IMG/VR virus record: IMGVR_UViG_3300043775_001945
Span: 1 to 30,700 of that record
Length of the DNA stretch: 30,700 nucleotides
DNA from: a virus
Reading direction: 5' to 3' (one strand)
The notes under the pieces are model-generated. The model was not told the origin of the DNA. It worked only from the letters and a program-made list of their open reading frames with translations, and did not search any database. Both the position numbers and the translations under genes were made by a program. Within the stretch, counting starts at the first letter, position 1. Each line of letters opens with the position of its first letter. Positions 7,034-27,844 of the stretch are shown piece after piece.

Positions 7034-7062
7034 TTGATTTAATTACTAAAATATATTATAAT
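7034..7062 (+). promoter_or_regulatory. Sigma70-type promoter for the helicase gene
   Basis: TTGATT (7034-7039), 17 bases and TATAAT (7057-7062) lie 34 bases before the helicase ATG at 7097. The hexamers are identical to those at 11795-11823, 16941-16969 and 23201-23229. Confidence 0.8.
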
Positions 7063-7096: not shown

Positions 7097-8677
7097 ATGA
7101 ATATAAATGAGCATTGGGCAATGGAAGGCCATCAACCTAGAGATTCCCAAATTACTGCGTTTGATTTTATGGTATCAAATTCAGATAAAAAATACTTATT
7201 TTTAGAATTACCGATCGGTACCGGTAAATCTGCATTGGGTGTTACTTACGCGAATTGGATTAAGACATTAAATGCATCCCAATTGGCATCATATATTTTA
7301 ACACCTCAGAAAATATTACAAGAGCAATACGAAAAATCATTTAAGTCAAATAATTTTACATCATTATACGGTAGAAACTATTATCGTTGTAATACGGTAA
7401 ATGGTAATTGCGAAATGGGTAATATAGTTAAAGCATCATGCCCCGGATGTCCGAGTAAAGCCGCCCATACTAGAGCTATTAATGCAGACCATACTGTATT
7501 AAATTACACATTAGGTTTAATATTATTTGGCGGTAATTCAAAATACGAACGCCGCAGTTTAATGGTTTTCGATGAATGTCATCAATTGGAAAAAATATTA
7601 ACTGATTTTAATAATATGATGATAACGAAATATAATTGTACAAAATATAAGATTCCGTGGATTACGAGTCGGACTATAGAAGATATACAAAAATGGGTTA
7701 AAGAATTGTATTGGCCATCAATGGATGAGCAATATACCGCATTATCGGATGAATGTGAATTAATAGATAATACAAGAAAATTATCATCGGAAGATATTAA
7801 TAAATTAACTACATTATCTACATTATCAGAACACTTAAATACTGTTAATTCGTTTATGATGAGAACGACCGATGAATTATACGATAATTTTATTGTTACT
7901 GGCGATGACGATAGTATTAAATTAAAATACATATTCGGTCGTGAAAATTTTCACGACGTTTTAGAACCGAAAGCTGATAAGTTTTTGTTTATGTCGTCGA
8001 CTATATTCGATTATACTGAATTGTGTAAAAATTTAAATATTCCATTAGAAGAGACTGCGTTTATTTCATTAGAATCCGAATTTAATAAAGATAATAGACC
8101 GGTTATATATAAACCGACTATGAAAATGAGTTACGGCTGGGATCATGCAAATAAAATAAACGAACGTAAGGTTTTAATTAAAAATATTAAGTTTTTATTA
8201 AAACAACATACTGATGAAAGCGGAATTATACATACTGGAAATTTTCAGATTGCTAAATGGCTTGTTTCTGAATTAAGTAATGGAACCCATGAAATATTTC
8301 ATCATAATCCGGGTTCAGGAGATAATAGAAATAAAATCATTAGTGCATATATTAATAGTAGAAAACCAAGTTTGTTAATATCACCTAGTATTACTGAAGG
8401 TTTAGATTTAGTCGATGATAGGGCTAGATTCGTTATTTTCGCTAAAATTGCATTTGGTAGTTTAGGCGATGCTTGGATTAAAAAAAGAATGGATATGTCG
8501 AATAATTGGTATTTAATAAATGCATTAACTGACGTAATTCAAGGATGTGGTAGAGTAGTTCGATCTCACGATGATTTTGGCGTTTGTTATATTTTAGATT
8601 CATCGTGGGAATACTTATTTAATAAAACAAAACATCATATTCCTAGATGGTGGTTAGACGCATACCATAAAATGTAA
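7097..8677 (+). CDS. DinG/XPD-type superfamily 2 helicase with iron-sulfur cysteines
   Basis: This 526-residue helicase probably unwinds DNA 5' to 3' at the expense of ATP, as DinG and XPD do. The Walker A motif is GTGKS (41-45) and the Walker B/DEAH box is DECH (159-162). Between them lie four cysteines (C98, C105, C115, C118; spacing 6, 9, 2) where DinG and XPD hold a 4Fe-4S cluster. Near the end come motif V (TEGLDL) and motif VI (QGCGRVVR). The ATG at 7097 is chosen because GAGG lies 5 bases before it; an upstream in-frame TTG at 7076 would overlap that ribosome site. It is monocistronic behind its own promoter. T4 has Dda, UvsW and gp41 helicases but no DinG type, so this looks like an accessory repair or replication helicase. 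Confidence 0.87.
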   Translation: MNINEHWAMEGHQPRDSQITAFDFMVSNSDKKYLFLELPIGTGKSALGVTYANWIKTLNASQLASYILTPQKILQEQYEKSFKSNNFTSLYGRNYYRCNTVNGNCEMGNIVKASCPGCPSKAAHTRAINADHTVLNYTLGLILFGGNSKYERRSLMVFDECHQLEKILTDFNNMMITKYNCTKYKIPWITSRTIEDIQKWVKELYWPSMDEQYTALSDECELIDNTRKLSSEDINKLTTLSTLSEHLNTVNSFMMRTTDELYDNFIVTGDDDSIKLKYIFGRENFHDVLEPKADKFLFMSSTIFDYTELCKNLNIPLEETAFISLESEFNKDNRPVIYKPTMKMSYGWDHANKINERKVLIKNIKFLLKQHTDESGIIHTGNFQIAKWLVSELSNGTHEIFHHNPGSGDNRNKIISAYINSRKPSLLISPSITEGLDLVDDRARFVIFAKIAFGSLGDAWIKKRMDMSNNWYLINALTDVIQGCGRVVRSHDDFGVCYILDSSWEYLFNKTKHHIPRWWLDAYHKM

Positions 8678-11794: not shown

Positions 11795-11823
11795 ATTATA
11801 CTATATTGAGCGCATTTAATCAA
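11795..11823 (-). promoter_or_regulatory. Sigma70-type promoter for the gp41 operon
   Basis: On the minus strand TTGATT (11823-11818), 17 bases and TATAAT (11800-11795) predict a start near 11788. That gives a leader of about 100 nt before the 46-residue gene. The promoter starts 5 bases after the upstream gene's stop codon. Confidence 0.8.
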
Positions 11824-16940: not shown

Positions 16941-16969
16941 ATTATACCGGATTTAACATAAATAATCAA
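16941..16969 (-). promoter_or_regulatory. Sigma70-type promoter for the gp55 operon
   Basis: On the minus strand TTGATT (16969-16964), 17 bases and TATAAT (16946-16941) precede gp55 by 33 bases. It overlaps an opposing late-promoter-like element for the baseplate operon, so early leftward and late rightward transcription may exclude each other. Confidence 0.8.
16957..16964 (+). promoter_or_regulatory. Candidate late promoter for the baseplate operon
   Basis: CATAAATA lies 35 bases before the ATG at 17000 and differs from the T4 late consensus TATAAATA only at the first base. No sigma70-type promoter points this way, which fits a late operon. Confidence 0.4.
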
Positions 16970-21362: not shown

Positions 21363-21641
21363 ATGACTAATACATCTGAATTAATTTTACCAACTAGCCC
21401 AGCCGATATTAAAAAATTAAAAGGTATGATCGAGGAAGCGGCTTTATGTATGCAACGAATCGACGATCAAAAAGATCAAATGAAATCAATTTTTGATGCA
21501 ATTAAAGATCAATTACAAATTGCTCCGAAACATGCTAGAAAGATGACAAAAACATATCATAAAAATAATTTTAGTGAAACCCAAGCTGAATATAGTGAAT
21601 TCGAAGCATTATATGAAAGTGTTATGGGAATTGATGATTAA
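21363..21641 (+). CDS. dsbA: Double-stranded DNA-binding protein, DsbA-like
   Basis: This 92-residue protein aligns by eye along its whole length with T4 DsbA (89 residues). Shared stretches are an N-terminal helix (DIKKLKGMIEEAA), an IKDQL-x(4-5)-K-x(2)-R/N core, the YHKNN motif (T4 YHKDN) and a C-terminal acidic helix (EFEALYESVM; T4 VLELYDAV). T4 DsbA is a small DNA-binding protein that assists late transcription, which suits the gp55 and clamp genes nearby. It is the first gene behind the replication-operon promoter and its palindrome. Confidence 0.75.
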   Translation: MTNTSELILPTSPADIKKLKGMIEEAALCMQRIDDQKDQMKSIFDAIKDQLQIAPKHARKMTKTYHKNNFSETQAEYSEFEALYESVMGIDD

Positions 21642-21850: not shown

Positions 21851-22270
21851 ATGGGCTATATATCAGCAACGATGAAACGAAATGATAAAGGTTTCGTTGA
21901 AGGTGATGAAGTTTATGTTTGGGAATGTATCGATCATAAACACGTACTAAAAAAATATCCGGGTATATTCGAATTTTTTATGAAGAATGATGAAGAAGGT
22001 GAACATACCAGTATTTTTAATGATAAATTAAAGAAATACGAATTCGATAATCTTCGAGATTTTCGAGCAGCTAAAAAAATGCTTATCGAAGAACGAGGTG
22101 AAAAATTATACGAATCGGATATAGGCGTAGATACTAAAGTATTATCAAAGTATTATTATAATCAACCAGCGCCCGATCTTAATATTATGTTATATGATAT
22201 TGAGGTTGATTATAAATCGCAGACGTTCCCCGATGAAACTGTTGTTAAAATAAGAATGAAACCAAAATAA
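21851..22270 (+). CDS. 43: DNA polymerase family B, N-terminal fragment with exonuclease motif I (gp43A)
   Basis: This 139-residue protein corresponds to about the first 125 residues of T4 gp43. It starts like gp43 (GYISATMKRNDKGFVEGDE), has the FDNLRDFRAAKK region (T4 FPSMKDARDWMKR), and ends in YDIEVDYKSQTFPD (T4 CDIEV..KFPDP). D116 and E118 are the exonuclease I metal ligands. The protein then stops at 22270 after FPDETVVKIRMKPK, while the rest of the polymerase begins at 23265. It must bind the large part for proofreading to work. It is followed at once by an AGGA site for the next gene, not by a continuing frame, so this looks like a stable gene split rather than a sequencing error. Confidence 0.85.
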   Translation: MGYISATMKRNDKGFVEGDEVYVWECIDHKHVLKKYPGIFEFFMKNDEEGEHTSIFNDKLKKYEFDNLRDFRAAKKMLIEERGEKLYESDIGVDTKVLSKYYYNQPAPDLNIMLYDIEVDYKSQTFPDETVVKIRMKPK

Positions 22271-22282
22271 TAGGAAAATAAA

Positions 22283-22564
22283 ATGATTTTAGATCCGAAA
22301 GAATATGATACATTTCCAGGCCGTCAAAATAAATTAAAACATTATAATAGAAATGGATACCCAACGAAATCATTACAAGATTCTGATCCAGTAGTTCGAT
22401 TGAATGCATATCGCAAATTAGGTTTTACTAAAGATGCACTAGCAGATGAACACCACGCTATTAGATTCGAAGCATACGCCGCATTGGGGTGGACTAATGA
22501 TGCATATCATGACCCTATGGATTATATTAAAGCTTACGCATTATCCCAACCAGTGAAACGATAA
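22283..22564 (+). CDS. Small HEAT-like repeat protein inside the split polymerase locus
   Basis: This 93-residue protein is made largely of three repeats of 20-22 residues: GYPTKSLQDSDPVVRLNAYRKL, then GFTKDALADEHHAIRFEAYAAL, then GWTNDAYHDPMDYIKAYAL. The consensus is G-[YFW]-[PT]-x(2)-[SA]-x(2)-D-x(4)-[VI]-[RK]-x(2)-A-Y. Such helical repeats are usually protein-binding scaffolds. AGGA precedes the ATG by 8-9 bases. Its position between the two polymerase parts suggests it may help them assemble, or that it is simply a passenger; the sequence does not decide. Confidence 0.72.
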   Translation: MILDPKEYDTFPGRQNKLKHYNRNGYPTKSLQDSDPVVRLNAYRKLGFTKDALADEHHAIRFEAYAALGWTNDAYHDPMDYIKAYALSQPVKR

Positions 22565-22567
22565 ATA
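22560..22567 (+). promoter_or_regulatory. Candidate late promoter for the 198-residue gene
   Basis: GATAAATA overlaps the end of the repeat-protein gene and lies 30 bases before the ATG at 22598. It differs from TATAAATA at one base. Spacing to the ATG is the same as for the exact TATAAATA at 28216-28223. Confidence 0.35.
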
Positions 22568-22597
22568 ATTTTTATTTAAATCAATCGGCGGAGTAGT

Positions 22598-23194
22598 ATG
22601 GCGACTTATTTGAGGGCTAATATATCACAAAATCTAGTGTATACTCCGCCCGGTTATACGTATACTAATACTTTATCATCAATGGTAATTGATTATACTG
22701 GTAATAATTATAATATGACGTATGAAGGCACTATAGTTCGAAATTCAGTTTTATATGTAGTATGGGCGGAATATTCTGATAGTAGTGTTAATAGTTATAT
22801 TAATAATCAAATATGGCGATACGCCGTTTTTGAAAATCAACAATCTGCGAATGAAGTTGCAAACTTCATTAATAATATTAAAATATACAAAGATCTAAAA
22901 TTAAATGTTACTTATGATGTTCCGATAAGTGGTATTGGTTTATCTCCAATGTTAGTTACTCCGGATAGTGAAGGATATAAATCTAATGTTTCGGTTCCTA
23001 ATCCAGCATCTTTTACTAGAACTAATACTACAATGTTCTCTCCAGATACGCCAACTAATGCACCGAATAGACCGTATCTTACTATCAGAACAACAGCGAC
23101 ACAAGAAGTATTTAATTTTTATTCATTCCCCTGGTTAACTACGACCTGTAAATTCGGCAATGCATACGCAACTAGAATATTAGCATCAGTTTAA
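22598..23194 (+). CDS. Unknown beta-rich protein, possibly a virion protein
   Basis: This is a 198-residue protein, MATYLRANIS to TRILASV, with no recognised domain. It is rich in N, T, S and Y, low in charge and appears beta-stranded throughout, a composition typical of phage head-decoration or tail proteins and unlike the replication genes on either side. A strong GGCGGAG ribosome site precedes the ATG, and a late-promoter-like GATAAATA lies 30 bases upstream. No signal peptide or membrane segment is seen. It probably came in with the insertion that separates the two polymerase genes. Confidence 0.75.
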   Translation: MATYLRANISQNLVYTPPGYTYTNTLSSMVIDYTGNNYNMTYEGTIVRNSVLYVVWAEYSDSSVNSYINNQIWRYAVFENQQSANEVANFINNIKIYKDLKLNVTYDVPISGIGLSPMLVTPDSEGYKSNVSVPNPASFTRTNTTMFSPDTPTNAPNRPYLTIRTTATQEVFNFYSFPWLTTTCKFGNAYATRILASV

Positions 23195-23200
23195 AAATAA

Positions 23201-23229
23201 TTGATTTTAATCAATATTTCAAGTATAAT
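23201..23229 (+). promoter_or_regulatory. Sigma70-type promoter before the large polymerase fragment
   Basis: TTGATT (23201-23206), 17 bases and TATAAT (23224-23229) lie 35 bases before the ATG at 23265. This gives the large polymerase part its own early expression, independent of the operon start at 21287. Confidence 0.8.
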
Positions 23230-23264
23230 ATAATAAATTAAATTTACCTAATTAAAAATATATT

Positions 23265-25862
23265 ATGGATAACTTAGAAGTCACTTTGGGTGAAATTCGA
23301 CAATTACCTAAAAAACAACAAGAACAAATTGAAATATACGACGAACAAACTAAAAAATGGATTTCGTATACTAATTCAAAATATGAATATAGTGGTCCGA
23401 CGGGTTTTTCAAGTCCATTAAATCCATACGCCCCAATTAATGCAATATCGATGCATAAAGAATGGCTTACTAAATCAAAAGTATTTGCCGTCCCACCCCC
23501 AGGTTTTGATTTAAATAATTTTGATAATTCGTTATCTGAATTAACTGAGATTATTTTTTTTAAAAATGAATCCGATATGTTATTGTCATTTTTAGATGAA
23601 ATAGAAGACGTTAGTTTATTATCCGGATGGAATAGTTCGGGCTTCGATGATCCGTATATTTGCCGCCGAATTGAAATGGTTTTAGGTGAACATCATTTAA
23701 AAAGAATGAGTTTTCCTCAAGCGAATATTCCAATATATAGATCGGTTTTCGTTAAAGGTAAAGAAAATTTACAAGTAGAATTAAGCGGTAGGGTATCATT
23801 AGATTATCTCGAATTATTTAAAAAATTCGAAGTTGTTGAAAGGCAAAGTTATAAATTAGAAGTTATATCTGAAGATGTTTTACCGCATTTAGCGAAATTA
23901 TCATATCCTGGAACATTAGAACAATTATACGTAAATGATTTTAATCATTTTTTAAGATATAACGTTCGCGATACCGAAATTCTAGCCGGATTCGAATCTA
24001 AATTAAAATATATCCGATTAGCTAATGATATGATTCATACTAGTACTAATCAATTTACTCATATTTTCGGAACTGTTCGAATGGTTGATAATGCTATTAT
24101 CAACTATTGTCATTACGAATTAAACAAGCGAGTTCCTGATAGATGGGATACTGCGGATGGCTCGATTCAAGGAGCTTACGTTTTATTTCCGCAACGAGGA
24201 CTACATAGATGGATTGCATCAATTGATATTAATTCATTATATCCATCGGCTATTCGAGCTATCAATATTAGCCCGGAAACTATTCGCGGGCAATTCGTTA
24301 ATAATATTAAAGATTGGGCTTGTATTGCTGAATATAAAGAATGCGAATTAACATTAAGATATGAAGATGGTTCGTATGAAACTAGATTAACTACGGAGTG
24401 GATTGATTTCTTTATAGAAAAGAAATGGTCGGTTAGTGGATACGGAACGGTTTATACTCAAGAATTTGAGGGTGTTATCCCGTCATTATTAGGTACTTGG
24501 TATACGCAGCGAAAAATATATCAAGCTAAAAAGAAAGAGTGTGAAAAATTAGCAGAACAATATAAAGGTAAGGATCAGGCGTTATATACAAAATACTTAG
24601 AAGAAGCTAAACATTATGATCGATTTCAATTTATCTTTAAAATTAAATTAAATTCAACTTATGGATGTCTAAGTAATTATAACTTTAGGTTCTTTAGGTT
24701 AGAATCTGGCGAATCCGTAACTGGTACTGGTCGAATGATTTTAAGACATCAATGTCGTAAAGTAAATGAATTAATCGAAGGTAATTATAATATTGATTTT
24801 CCATTATATGAAAATAACAAAGTTATCGATGAATTAAATAAGGAACATAGTAAAAAATACTTAGCTAATAATCCATTTGATGAAGAATATATGGCGAATT
24901 CTACTCATAATGATAGATCAAGTGTATTAGATTTATTAACTGCAGAACGTAAAGAATATTATCACCCGAATACATTAACTTATGATATTTCATTAACTGG
25001 TCCTATATTTAATGGTAAATTCCAATCAGAAACGGTTATTTACGGCGATACTGATAGTACATATTTCGTAGTTCCTACTAACGATAAAGACGAAGCGATT
25101 CAAATAGCTGATGCAGTAGCAGACCAAGTTAATAAATCATATCAACCATTTATGAAACAAGCTTTTTTATGTCAACCAGTATTTGATGAAATGATTAAAT
25201 GCGGGCGTGAAATTGTCGGCGATAGTAGTATATTTGTTGAGAAAAAACGTTATACTATACATGTAGTTGATAATGAAGGTAAAGCTAGCGATAAAATGAA
25301 AACGATGGGTTTAGATATTAAAAAAACTACGTTACCTAAACCAGTAGCTGCAAAATTAACTAGTTTTATTAAACGTTTATTGTTGGGTGAAGATTGGAAT
25401 GATATTGCAAAAGATATTGTCGCATACAAAGAAGAGTTAAATGATTTTAAAAATTTATTAGAAATGGGATTACCAAAAGGCGTTAATAAAGTAGAGGAGT
25501 ATACTGAATTATACGAAAACTTAGGTAGTAAGGCTAATATTCCTGGTGGCGCAGCAGCAAGTATATTTTTTAATATTAATTTAGTTCAGTATGGGGATAC
25601 GGAAAATCAACCGATTGGTTCTGGATCTAAAATTAAAGTTTATTATTTAAAACGAGCAATAGGTAAATTTAAATCGATTGCGATACCGACTGATTTAGAA
25701 CATTTACCACAATGGTTTATTGATGATTTTATTCCTAAAATAGATAAAGATCAGCAAATTAATAGATTAGTAGATAAACCATTAGATAATATTTTAAAAG
25801 CAATCAATTTAAAAACACCGACTATGCAGATATTACAAGCAGAAGATTTATTTAATTTTTAA
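23265..25862 (+). CDS. 43: DNA polymerase family B, large fragment (gp43B)
   Basis: This 865-residue replicative polymerase lacks the N-terminal and exonuclease I part, which is encoded at 21851-22270. Residues 1-50 have no gp43 counterpart that I can see; gp43-like sequence begins near 52 (NPYAPINAISMHKEW). Exonuclease II is N123..D128 (GWNSSGFDDPY) and exonuclease III is Y232-x3-D236 (YNVRD). Polymerase motif A is D321 (DINSLYPS), motif B K461-x-NSTYG, and motif C D595 and D597 (YGDTDS). Between motifs B and C are about 134 residues, against about 60 in T4, so there is an insertion of about 75 residues. The C-terminus AEDLFNF resembles the clamp-binding tail of T4 gp43. No ribosome site is visible before the ATG. 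The clamp gene follows 9 bases later. Confidence 0.95.
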   Translation: MDNLEVTLGEIRQLPKKQQEQIEIYDEQTKKWISYTNSKYEYSGPTGFSSPLNPYAPINAISMHKEWLTKSKVFAVPPPGFDLNNFDNSLSELTEIIFFKNESDMLLSFLDEIEDVSLLSGWNSSGFDDPYICRRIEMVLGEHHLKRMSFPQANIPIYRSVFVKGKENLQVELSGRVSLDYLELFKKFEVVERQSYKLEVISEDVLPHLAKLSYPGTLEQLYVNDFNHFLRYNVRDTEILAGFESKLKYIRLANDMIHTSTNQFTHIFGTVRMVDNAIINYCHYELNKRVPDRWDTADGSIQGAYVLFPQRGLHRWIASIDINSLYPSAIRAINISPETIRGQFVNNIKDWACIAEYKECELTLRYEDGSYETRLTTEWIDFFIEKKWSVSGYGTVYTQEFEGVIPSLLGTWYTQRKIYQAKKKECEKLAEQYKGKDQALYTKYLEEAKHYDRFQFIFKIKLNSTYGCLSNYNFRFFRLESGESVTGTGRMILRHQCRKVNELIEGNYNIDFPLYENNKVIDELNKEHSKKYLANNPFDEEYMANSTHNDRSSVLDLLTAERKEYYHPNTLTYDISLTGPIFNGKFQSETVIYGDTDSTYFVVPTNDKDEAIQIADAVADQVNKSYQPFMKQAFLCQPVFDEMIKCGREIVGDSSIFVEKKRYTIHVVDNEGKASDKMKTMGLDIKKTTLPKPVAAKLTSFIKRLLLGEDWNDIAKDIVAYKEELNDFKNLLEMGLPKGVNKVEEYTELYENLGSKANIPGGAAASIFFNINLVQYGDTENQPIGSGSKIKVYYLKRAIGKFKSIAIPTDLEHLPQWFIDDFIPKIDKDQQINRLVDKPLDNILKAINLKTPTMQILQAEDLFNF

Positions 25863-25871
25863 GGAATTGAG

Positions 25872-26564
25872 ATGGTACTAGACGAAAATACAGTAAATAT
25901 AATATTAAATGCAGTTCATGTCGCTAAATTATTTAGTATCGAATCATTTATTATAGAGCCTAATATTATTAGAGGGATCAATGAAGATCGCACTGCCGCT
26001 ATATTAACAGAATGCGATATTAATATCGGATGTAAATCGATTGGTATTAATAGAATGGATGTTTTATTAAGTAGATTAAATTTAGTTTCGAATGATGCTA
26101 TTATTGAATGTCATACTAAATCAGAGGATATGGATGCAGATAAGATATCTATCACGACTGATAGATTAAATTTAGAATATAGTTGCGCTAATACATTAGC
26201 AATTAAAGCACCGACTAGTGCAAAAGTAAATGATTTATTTGAAGTTTCTATAGAAGAAAGTTTAGTAAATATCCTTAAAAAAGGACGAAATGCAATGAAA
26301 ACTGACGTTATTATGATTATGTGTGATAATAATTCGGTTCAATATAAATTACAGGACGAAAATAATGATAAATTACTGTATAATGAAGGCTTCGCATATA
26401 ATTTAGTTGATAATTCAGATATTAATTTTGTTTATAAGTACCCAATTAAATCTATATTATCAGCATTTACCGATTGCGATGCTAAGAAATTTTATATTAC
26501 CGAACGAGGGATGATTAAAATTAATACTAAAGGTATCGATCTTTATATCCCTCAAAAATCATAA
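25872..26564 (+). CDS. 45: Sliding clamp, T4 gp45 type
   Basis: This is a 230-residue protein (T4 gp45 has 228) of the PCNA-like fold. It forms a trimeric ring that tethers the polymerase and, in T4, activates late transcription through gp55. Similarity to gp45 is spread over the length (FIIEPNIIRGINEDRTAAI near the start; LSAFTDCDAKKFYITERGMIKI near the end), and there is no single catalytic motif. AAGGA lies 7 bases before the ATG, and the gene follows the polymerase after 9 bases. The clamp loader (gp44/62) is not in the window. Confidence 0.87.
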   Translation: MVLDENTVNIILNAVHVAKLFSIESFIIEPNIIRGINEDRTAAILTECDINIGCKSIGINRMDVLLSRLNLVSNDAIIECHTKSEDMDADKISITTDRLNLEYSCANTLAIKAPTSAKVNDLFEVSIEESLVNILKKGRNAMKTDVIMIMCDNNSVQYKLQDENNDKLLYNEGFAYNLVDNSDINFVYKYPIKSILSAFTDCDAKKFYITERGMIKINTKGIDLYIPQKS

Positions 26565-26576
26565 TAGGGTATTTCA

Positions 26577-26864
26577 ATGAATATATTTAAAAGATTATTT
26601 AAAAATAAGGCTGAATCTGAAGTTAATGAATCGATAAAACAGAAAAAAGAAAATCATTTTAGCATAGTTAGTGATAAAATTGATCCAGTTAGAGGAATTG
26701 AATTAAAATTAGATTGGGACGATGATTTTATTCGGTATCTAAGAGCAAATGGATATCATGGCGCGAGTGATGAAATAGTTGTTCAAAAATGGTTGCATGC
26801 GACTAGTTTGTCGCTAGAAGAGCGACTTAAATTAGAATCTGATTTTACGAGTGATTTTGAATGA
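26577..26864 (+). CDS. Unknown small protein between clamp and RNase H
   Basis: This 95-residue protein has a basic N-terminus (MNIFKRLFKNK) and a likely flexible stretch to about 35. The core at about 36-80 looks conserved (DPVRGIELKLDWDDDFIRYL, then GASDEIVVQKWL), followed by an acidic end (LESDFTSDFE). I recall comparable DWDDEFI/VQKWL-type small proteins in T4-like phages but cannot name a function. A gp33-like late coactivator is conceivable from size, acidic tail and neighbourhood, but no motif proves it. AGGG precedes the ATG, and its TGA overlaps the RNase H ATG (ATGA, 26861-26864), so the two are coupled. Confidence 0.75.
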   Translation: MNIFKRLFKNKAESEVNESIKQKKENHFSIVSDKIDPVRGIELKLDWDDDFIRYLRANGYHGASDEIVVQKWLHATSLSLEERLKLESDFTSDFE

Positions 26865-27844
26865 ATACGATAGATAAACAGCATTTATTAGTTTTTGATA
26901 TGTCAACTATTTTATATAAGGCGTTTTATGTAAATAGTAGAGAATTGGATAAAGATTTATTAATGAAATTAGCGTTCAATACCGGTTTCGGTATGACTAA
27001 TAAGTATTATCGAACATATAAACCACATAAGATGATATTCGTTTTCGATAGAACTCCTTGGCGTAAAGAATATACTCAATCTGAAGATGCGTATATGAAA
27101 AAACTATATAAAGGTCATCGCAGACAATCAATGACACCTACTCAAATCGAATTATATCAAATGTATAAATCATTTATTACTACATTTGAACAGATAATTC
27201 AAGATTGTACATCTATTGTTTGTTTAGCCGCGGATGGTTTAGAAGCTGATGATCTTATTGCCGGCATTTGTAGAAAATATGGCGGTGATGATACCGCGAG
27301 TGATAATAGAAGCACTGAAACTACATTATATGATAATCATTGTGTTACCGTAATTAGTACCGATAAAGATATGTTACAATTACTAAGATATAAAAACGTT
27401 CAATTAATCGATCCAGCTACTGGGAATAATAGATACGTTGAAGATTGTGGTTTTGATTCAGTTGATTATTACTTATATGAAAAAGCTATGACTGGAGATT
27501 CTGGAGATAATGTTCCGTCGGCTTATCCTAGATATAGAAAAAAGAAGATCAAAGAAGCATTTTACGATCCATATTTGCATACGAATTTGATGAATTCTGA
27601 ATGGACTGATGCTGATGGTAGAACTATTACGGTTGGAACTGCAGTTAATGAAAATAAATTATTAACTAATTTAACTCATCAGCCGGAAGATATCCAACAA
27701 ATTATGTGGGATACTATCGAAGCTGGATTTAATAACATCGGTAAGTACGATCATTTTAAATTTTTAAAAGTATTGGGTAAATACGAATTAAAAAATATTA
27801 GTAAAGCTATTGATTCGTATATACCGATGTTATCGTTGAAATAA
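26861..27844 (+). CDS. rnh: RNase H / 5'-3' flap exonuclease, T4 Rnh type
   Basis: This 327-residue FEN-family nuclease (T4 Rnh has 305) should remove RNA primers from Okazaki fragments. The acidic metal-site residues are in order: D13 (VFDMS), D63 (FVFDRTPWR), E128-A-D130-D131 (GLEADDLIAG), D168 and D170 (STDKDML), and D213 and D216 (GDSGDN). The basic clamp stretch YKGHRRQ at 83-89 fits the arch region. It is the last gene of the replication operon. No ordinary terminator follows its stop; a 12-bp perfect hairpin lies 84 bases further on, inside the opposing gene. Confidence 0.93.
   Translation: MNTIDKQHLLVFDMSTILYKAFYVNSRELDKDLLMKLAFNTGFGMTNKYYRTYKPHKMIFVFDRTPWRKEYTQSEDAYMKKLYKGHRRQSMTPTQIELYQMYKSFITTFEQIIQDCTSIVCLAADGLEADDLIAGICRKYGGDDTASDNRSTETTLYDNHCVTVISTDKDMLQLLRYKNVQLIDPATGNNRYVEDCGFDSVDYYLYEKAMTGDSGDNVPSAYPRYRKKKIKEAFYDPYLHTNLMNSEWTDADGRTITVGTAVNENKLLTNLTHQPEDIQQIMWDTIEAGFNNIGKYDHFKFLKVLGKYELKNISKAIDSYIPMLSLK

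Follow-up and report, generated by a model that had tools for sequence, protein, structure and literature searches.

The family B DNA polymerase (PolB) encoded in a 30,700-nt stretch of viral DNA (positions 1 to 30,700 of IMG/VR record IMGVR_UViG_3300043775_001945; below, the window) is divided between two genes, with the break inside its exonuclease domain. The first open reading frame (ORF), recognized as such and by homology (N-half, 21851..22270, + strand, 139 amino acids (aa)), carries the N-terminal domain and the exonuclease motif Exo I (D-I-E, residues 116-118, codons at 22196..22204, + strand) within YDIEVDY. The second, recognized by its ORF and by profile matches (C-half, 23265..25862, + strand, 865 aa), carries the remaining exonuclease domain and the polymerase domain, with GWNSSGFDD (Exo II, 23625..23651, + strand), YNVRD (Exo III, 23958..23972, + strand), SLYPS and YGDTDS. 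Exo I-III and the polymerase motifs A, B and C are thus all present across the two halves, which lie 994 nt apart. An earlier note, made from this DNA sequence alone, had described these two ORFs and had pointed out that proofreading would need both polypeptides; the ORFs and the placement of Exo I apart from Exo II and Exo III bear this out. Our analysis indicates that the gene was cut within an accessory module, probably by a homing endonuclease, and that its products probably reassemble through that module.

The split of the polymerase into two genes is confirmed by further records. The same arrangement was found in IMG/VR contigs L001 (133 kb, 100% identity over 13,436 nt) and L002 (61 kb, 1 mismatch in 13,210 nt), and the three records have differing contig ends, which speaks against a misassembly of the intervening kilobase. 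No second gp43 was found in L001 and L002, incomplete records in which a search with the 483 N-terminal residues of the polymerase of a relative (L103) gave only the two halves. The N-half aligns with the start of intact jumbo-phage PolBs, with E values from 5e-21 (XacN1, 40% identity) to 2e-12 in a comparison limited to the single-chain enzymes of XacN1, RAS14, Phosso and SCTP-2, and tblastn with the N-half gave 49 phage records at E<=1. Its assignment in the earlier note to about residues 1-125 of T4 gp43 holds by way of these intact PolBs but not directly: blastp against 43A of phage 44RR gives E 0.23, and kinship to T4-type gp43 is visible via intermediates only. The C-half matches Pfam DNA_pol_B (E 1.9e-33), DNA_pol_B_exo1 from profile position 124 on (E 6.7e-12), and the DNA polymerase family of PHROG (E 1e-153).

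The stretch of about 50 residues at the start of the C-half had been taken for a novel extension. It is instead one piece of a module of about 60 aa located after Exo I, the other piece being the tail of the N-half (18 aa after DIEVDY). The first piece, KSQTFPDETVVKIRMKPK (22214..22267, + strand), corresponds to strand 1 of the first hairpin of the module, and the gene stops in the hairpin turn; the second piece, of 46 aa (23265..23402, + strand), corresponds to strand 2 onward. XacN1, which is without the module, reads DIEVDYDKEQ-GFSSP at this place, and the window reads DIEVDYKSQTFPDETVVKIRMKPK-stop and then MDNLEVTL...EYSGPT-GFSSP. Four relatives, L103, L104, L106 and L108, have the same extra sequence within one open frame. 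The window pieces, when joined, give an 81-aa stretch that aligns without gaps and at equal length with L103, L104 and L106. Since the joined pieces match the length of the unbroken module, nothing was lost, and the gene was cut inside a module that already existed. An unbroken allele in relatives and no loss of coding sequence at the insertion, both seen here, are features of a homing-endonuclease "gene in pieces". The extension of the C-half belongs, then, to an insert in the exonuclease domain of related phages, most of which have it unbroken within one gene.

The position of the break within the module was examined on an AlphaFold model of residues 1-483 of L103, the unbroken relative modelled (37 sequences, mean pLDDT 86). 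Foldseek pairs this model with RB69 gp43 (E 1.6e-26, TMq 0.68), and the N-terminal and exonuclease domains of L103 are predicted to have the gp43 fold. In the model the module (about residues 123-183) comprises strands at 130-135 and 141-145, two short helices, and strands at 160-164 and 169-172, with block-mean pLDDT values of 94, 93, 91, 86 and 79 over residues 131-180, and 69 and 67 at the borders. The window break falls in the 136-140 turn, in the first hairpin of this compact fold. The same fold was predicted for the isolated module (68 aa) with pLDDT 81.

The module is patchily distributed. In a census of 192 loci, several of them one contig fetched twice, 159 were callable and 33 were not. 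The two flanking landmarks were 13-16 residues apart in 140 of the callable loci and 70-74 apart, with no break, in 6 loci on 4 contigs; the other 13, from the record of the window and 4 contigs, were split. A later scan added seven contigs with the unbroken module (L203-L209) and a second contig, L199, split like L102. On a maximum-likelihood tree of 41 polymerases, built with the module columns excluded, module presence changes at least 3 times on well-supported branches and the split state changes 3 times. L184, sister to the clade of the window, is without the module, as are L107 and L110, the sisters of L091 and L108. Splits are confined to bearers of the module (3 of 9 rows with it, none of the 32 others; Fisher p 0.008, the rows being related and not independent). 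Xanthomonas phage X1 and 16 Stenotrophomonas phage records also have the module in this position, in each as one piece spanning the whole 78-aa query; the sequences inspected were those of X1 and IME-SM1. Profile comparisons of the module between clades gave probabilities of 98.2% (E 5.8e-14), 93.6% (2e-7) and 82.3% (1e-5), and the blastp alignment of the C-half with X1 begins within the module, at residue 6 (E 4e-46). The divergence of the module is as large as that of the surrounding polymerase, so the module may be ancient and have been lost many times. One scan of bacterial and archaeal genome contigs with query A2 gave no relatives.

A search of related phages for the same split, which the earlier note had proposed, found two further lineages broken at about the same hairpin turn (L102/L199 and L091), and these show the likely cause that the note had missed. 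The L102 gap contains a 332-aa ORF with an HNH motif. This ORF matches phrog_655, a family of homing endonucleases, at E 8.7e-24, and its Pfam HNH match (E 0.0012) is below the cut-off. The C-half of L102 begins within the final 17 nt of this ORF and is preceded by a Shine-Dalgarno match, and outside the endonuclease ORF the gap has only about 34 and 28 nt beside it. The L091 gap contains two ORFs of 170 and 163 aa, the first matching phrog_655 (E 4.6e-32). The endonuclease of L091 looks frameshifted, because its two ORFs match the two ends of the L102 ORF (E 7e-15 and 2e-12, pairwise). The breaks of the window, L102 and L091 coincide within about 2 residues; the endonuclease gene is present in the gaps of L102 and L091 and absent from that of the window.

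The polymerase halves are under purifying selection. None of the three split lineages has lost residues of Exo I, II or III. When split L102 was compared with unbroken L106, dN/dS outside the module was 0.029 for the N-half, where synonymous sites are near saturation, and otherwise 0.049 and 0.058. The split branches also run no faster than their intact sisters outside the module, with derived residues, split against unbroken, of 24 vs 31 (p 0.42), 64 vs 102 (p 0.004) and 51 vs 77 (p 0.03). The exception is the module of L102, with 22 of 58 residues derived against 3 of 58 in L106; compared with the rest of the L102 polymerase (24 of 937) the excess has p 3e-17. Possibly this divergence (L102:4874-6135) is a co-conversion tract brought with the endonuclease, or an adaptation to the break.

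From these data we infer an order of events, together with the assembly of the halves and the activity of the exonuclease. Some members of this phage group have the module in the loop that follows the Exo I strand of the exonuclease domain. An HNH homing-endonuclease gene would have inserted at the turn of the first beta-hairpin of the module, splitting the PolB gene. This arrangement, seen in L102/L199 and L091, would be the past state of the window, in which the endonuclease was later lost and two unrelated small genes and a promoter came to occupy the gap. The window would thus stand at the end of a cycle of gain, decay and loss. The two products would reassemble non-covalently, strand 1, which ends the N-half, pairing with strand 2, which opens the C-half, and this pairing would put the D-x-E of Exo I beside Exo II and Exo III and restore proofreading. 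Taken as a whole, an endonuclease-made gene in pieces, emptied and refilled in the window and with halves reassembling via the module, is the explanation we consider likely. The window probably works like, and descends from, a homing-endonuclease gene in pieces; it is not filed as a present member, because its gap is without an endonuclease gene.

The gap of the window contains a 93-aa ORF with a weak HEAT-repeat match (22283..22564, + strand) and a 198-aa ORF (22598..23194, + strand), neither with a homing-endonuclease match, and these ORFs fill it except for 115 of 994 nt. Among 50,697 phage records the 93-aa ORF had no relative and the 198-aa ORF one match at E 0.2. A promoter-like TTGATT-17-TATAAT (23201..23229, + strand) lies in the 70-nt gap preceding the C-half. 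The proposal of the earlier note that a sigma70-type promoter precedes the C-half received mixed support: a local scan found 16 sites against 15.3 expected, not above shuffles, but window-wide a site with at least 10 of 12 matches occurs in 7 of 32 upstream 100-nt stretches, compared with 1.9 in shuffles (p 0.002), and 8 genes have a site in the right orientation and 3 in the wrong one. The same pair occurs four times in the window, at 7034 (+), 23201 (+), 11795-11823 (-) and 16941-16969 (-), each mostly intergenic. TTGATT-17-TATAAT is likely a phage promoter, and a promoter of its own for the C-half is credible.

Several observations count against the proposed history. No endonuclease was found in the gap of the window by Pfam, PHROG or NCBIfam, tblastn of the L102 and L091 endonucleases against this gap gave a best E of 0.29, and none was found in the records L001 and L002. 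In the absence of any such trace, the endonuclease origin of the window split is deduced from its position. The ATG of the C-half is without a Shine-Dalgarno match. The independence of the three splits depends on parsimony over the 41 rows of the tree. Finally, the polymerase gene of L091 is further interrupted by a stop codon in frame at 7765, by a group I-like intron and by an intein, and so the L091 polymerase may be broken.

It could also be that the PolB gene of the window was split by ordinary insertion of the two small genes, with no homing endonuclease, and that the enzyme still works in two pieces. The missing endonuclease and the lack of any remnant fit this explanation, but the break lies at the same hairpin turn as in the two lineages that hold an endonuclease, and we regard such an insertion as unlikely. 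Another explanation is that the N-half is decaying or dispensable and that the C-half polymerizes by itself, proofreading weakly or not at all. In favour of this, every polymerase motif lies in the C-half, a promoter-like site precedes it, and the L091 gene is heavily interrupted. However, DIE is retained in all three split lineages, dN/dS of the N-half is low (about 0.03, L102 vs L106, synonymous sites near saturation), and the split branches show no excess of change; a dispensable N-half therefore seems quite improbable.

Joining of the halves by protein trans-splicing was also considered, since inteins have been described in other split PolBs (MIJ3, Aes123 PolB1) and the predicted fold of the module resembles half of a Hint domain. 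A functional split intein formed from the N-half tail and the C-half extension was dropped as a candidate upon finding the unbroken modules. The module has only about 60 residues; the block B histidine and the C-terminal His-Asn (blocks F and G) are absent from the window pieces and from the unbroken modules, and position 1, where a split intein has a Cys/Ser/Thr nucleophile, varies among T, S, K and D over ten members. Comparison by hhalign of the module with ten PolB inteins of the same group gave a probability of 0.1%, against 97.2-99.8% for left-out intein controls. Covalent joining is accordingly very hard to credit. Equally little speaks for a self-splicing intron in the gap with joining of the mRNA. 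Another part of the L091 polymerase gene does have a group I-like intron match (E 6.8e-5, below the Rfam gathering score), but no group I/II match was found in the window gap at E<=5 or in the L102 gap at E<=2, and both gaps are nearly all ORF; the intron was rejected. An assembly artefact, for which the metagenomic origin of all records might speak, has next to no probability given the three records with different ends and the two further lineages, one represented by two contigs, whose genes are broken there too.

The origin of the module itself is a separate question. It may be half of an intein (Hint) fold that has lost splicing and been kept as a docking hairpin, a "non-splicing split intein" that rejoins chains by strand pairing; we hold this to be doubtful. 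On this view, the docking hairpin would allow the exonuclease domain to survive being broken by homing-endonuclease genes, an idea we put forward with the same reserve. In a Foldseek search of the PDB with the module model, two Prp8 inteins were the best matches (E 0.54 and 0.86) and the VidaL intein the fourth (E 1.7), with the PolB16 and RadA inteins at ranks 35 and 36 among the best 50 of 122 matches; none of the 122 had E<=0.001. Inteins thus take the first, second and fourth places, and the module shares its strand-helix-strand order with the N-terminal half of Hint. Like homing elements, the module sits next to a conserved catalytic motif, and its scattered occurrence would agree with mobility. 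Against this stand the weak E values and the alignment scores: in VIA-align the Prp8 inteins scored Z 5.1 and 4.7 and the chain after them 3.5, short of what the tool rates as safe, the best alignment being at 4.0 A over 63 residues (Z 5.1). Every sequence test against inteins was negative. NCBIfam at E<=10 gave no family for the joined 61 aa of the module, Pfam at E<=5 gave only Kelch motifs and GtgE for the L103 module, and a profile search of the PDB gave Kelch and EVH1 chains, with no intein among the best 60 of 65. We take the Kelch and EVH1 matches as convergence, driven by a 15-residue EVYDxxxKKW stretch. A search of a viral fold library with the module gave a best E of 0.24 and no clear match. 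A literature search on intein remnants, most subscription papers lying outside its coverage, gave no account of this split or module.

Split phage polymerases and genes put in pieces by endonucleases are already known, with the proofreading site in one chain in those examined. Gene 43 of Aeromonas phages 25 and 44RR (Petrov et al. 2010, as cited in PMC2988022) is likewise a T4-related PolB in two genes, with a homing-endonuclease gene between them in phage 25 and an untranslated stretch in 44RR, and the proteins made from 43A and 43B of phage 25 are reported to co-purify and to act as a polymerase (PMC2988022). In the 43A proteins of these two phages (498 aa), DIEV, GWNSEGFD, VRDTDI and SLYPS lie at residues 112, 201, 311 and 400, so the break there is far downstream. 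The whole exonuclease and motif A are kept in 43A, whereas in the window Exo I is set apart from Exo II and III inside the module; the division is unlike the two examined, as the earlier note had said. In phage Aeh1 an HNH homing-endonuclease insertion (mobE) splits nrdA, the gene of another essential enzyme, ribonucleotide reductase, and NrdA is reported to remain active from two chains (Friedrich et al. 2007, as cited in PMC2988022). The window differs from it in the enzyme, in having lost the endonuclease, and in the break lying in an accessory module. The MIJ3 PolB, from a jumbo phage, consists of two ORFs with an HNH endonuclease ORF between them, as in the split relatives of the window, but MIJ3 carries a full intein, split, in whose pieces blocks A, N2, B, N4, F and G are recognized (PMC6892783); of these, B, F and G are absent here. 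Aes123 PolB1 and related cysteine-less split inteins also concern split PolBs of T4-like phages; those splice functionally (PMC11923092, PMC12707363), and the window module is without splicing residues. DNA polymerase genes of Jug phages are reported to be often split by intervening endonuclease sequences (PMC12363816). A literature search on PolBs split within the exonuclease, most subscription papers lying outside its coverage, showed no split between Exo I and Exo II and no such module. New, then, is a PolB in pieces, probably made by an endonuclease, whose proofreading site is divided inside a patchy accessory module. It offers a case for how enzymes tolerate cutting and how homing endonucleases choose their sites, and would allow asking whether the supply of a 139-residue subunit can control proofreading. 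A tail of 20 residues able to dock an exonuclease subunit could also be of use as a non-covalent split tag.

Other mobile elements were seen in these polymerase genes. In L091, where several lie within the single polymerase gene, a LAGLIDADG ORF (Pfam E 4.6e-33) follows the stop at 7765 (L091:7765-8708), and the group I-like intron match is located after KIKLNS. L106 has about 1.36 kb (L106:4642-6000) inserted after GWN of Exo II with no in-frame stop (a 937-aa reading); this is probably an intein, at a second site in the exonuclease. At motif C (YGD^TDS), ten distinct sequences of this polymerase group, L102, L104, L108, L091, L010, L110, L011, L029, L184 and L190, carry inteins of 153-376 aa. 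Just upstream of the N-half, the window encodes a DsbA-like transcriptional regulator (21363-21641; PF11126, E 1.4e-11), and similar short ORFs precede the polymerase in L102, L091 and L010. Downstream of the C-half, at 25872-27844, lie a clamp-like gene (phrog_223, E 7e-5) and an RNase H/exonuclease gene (phrog_107, E 1.8e-31).

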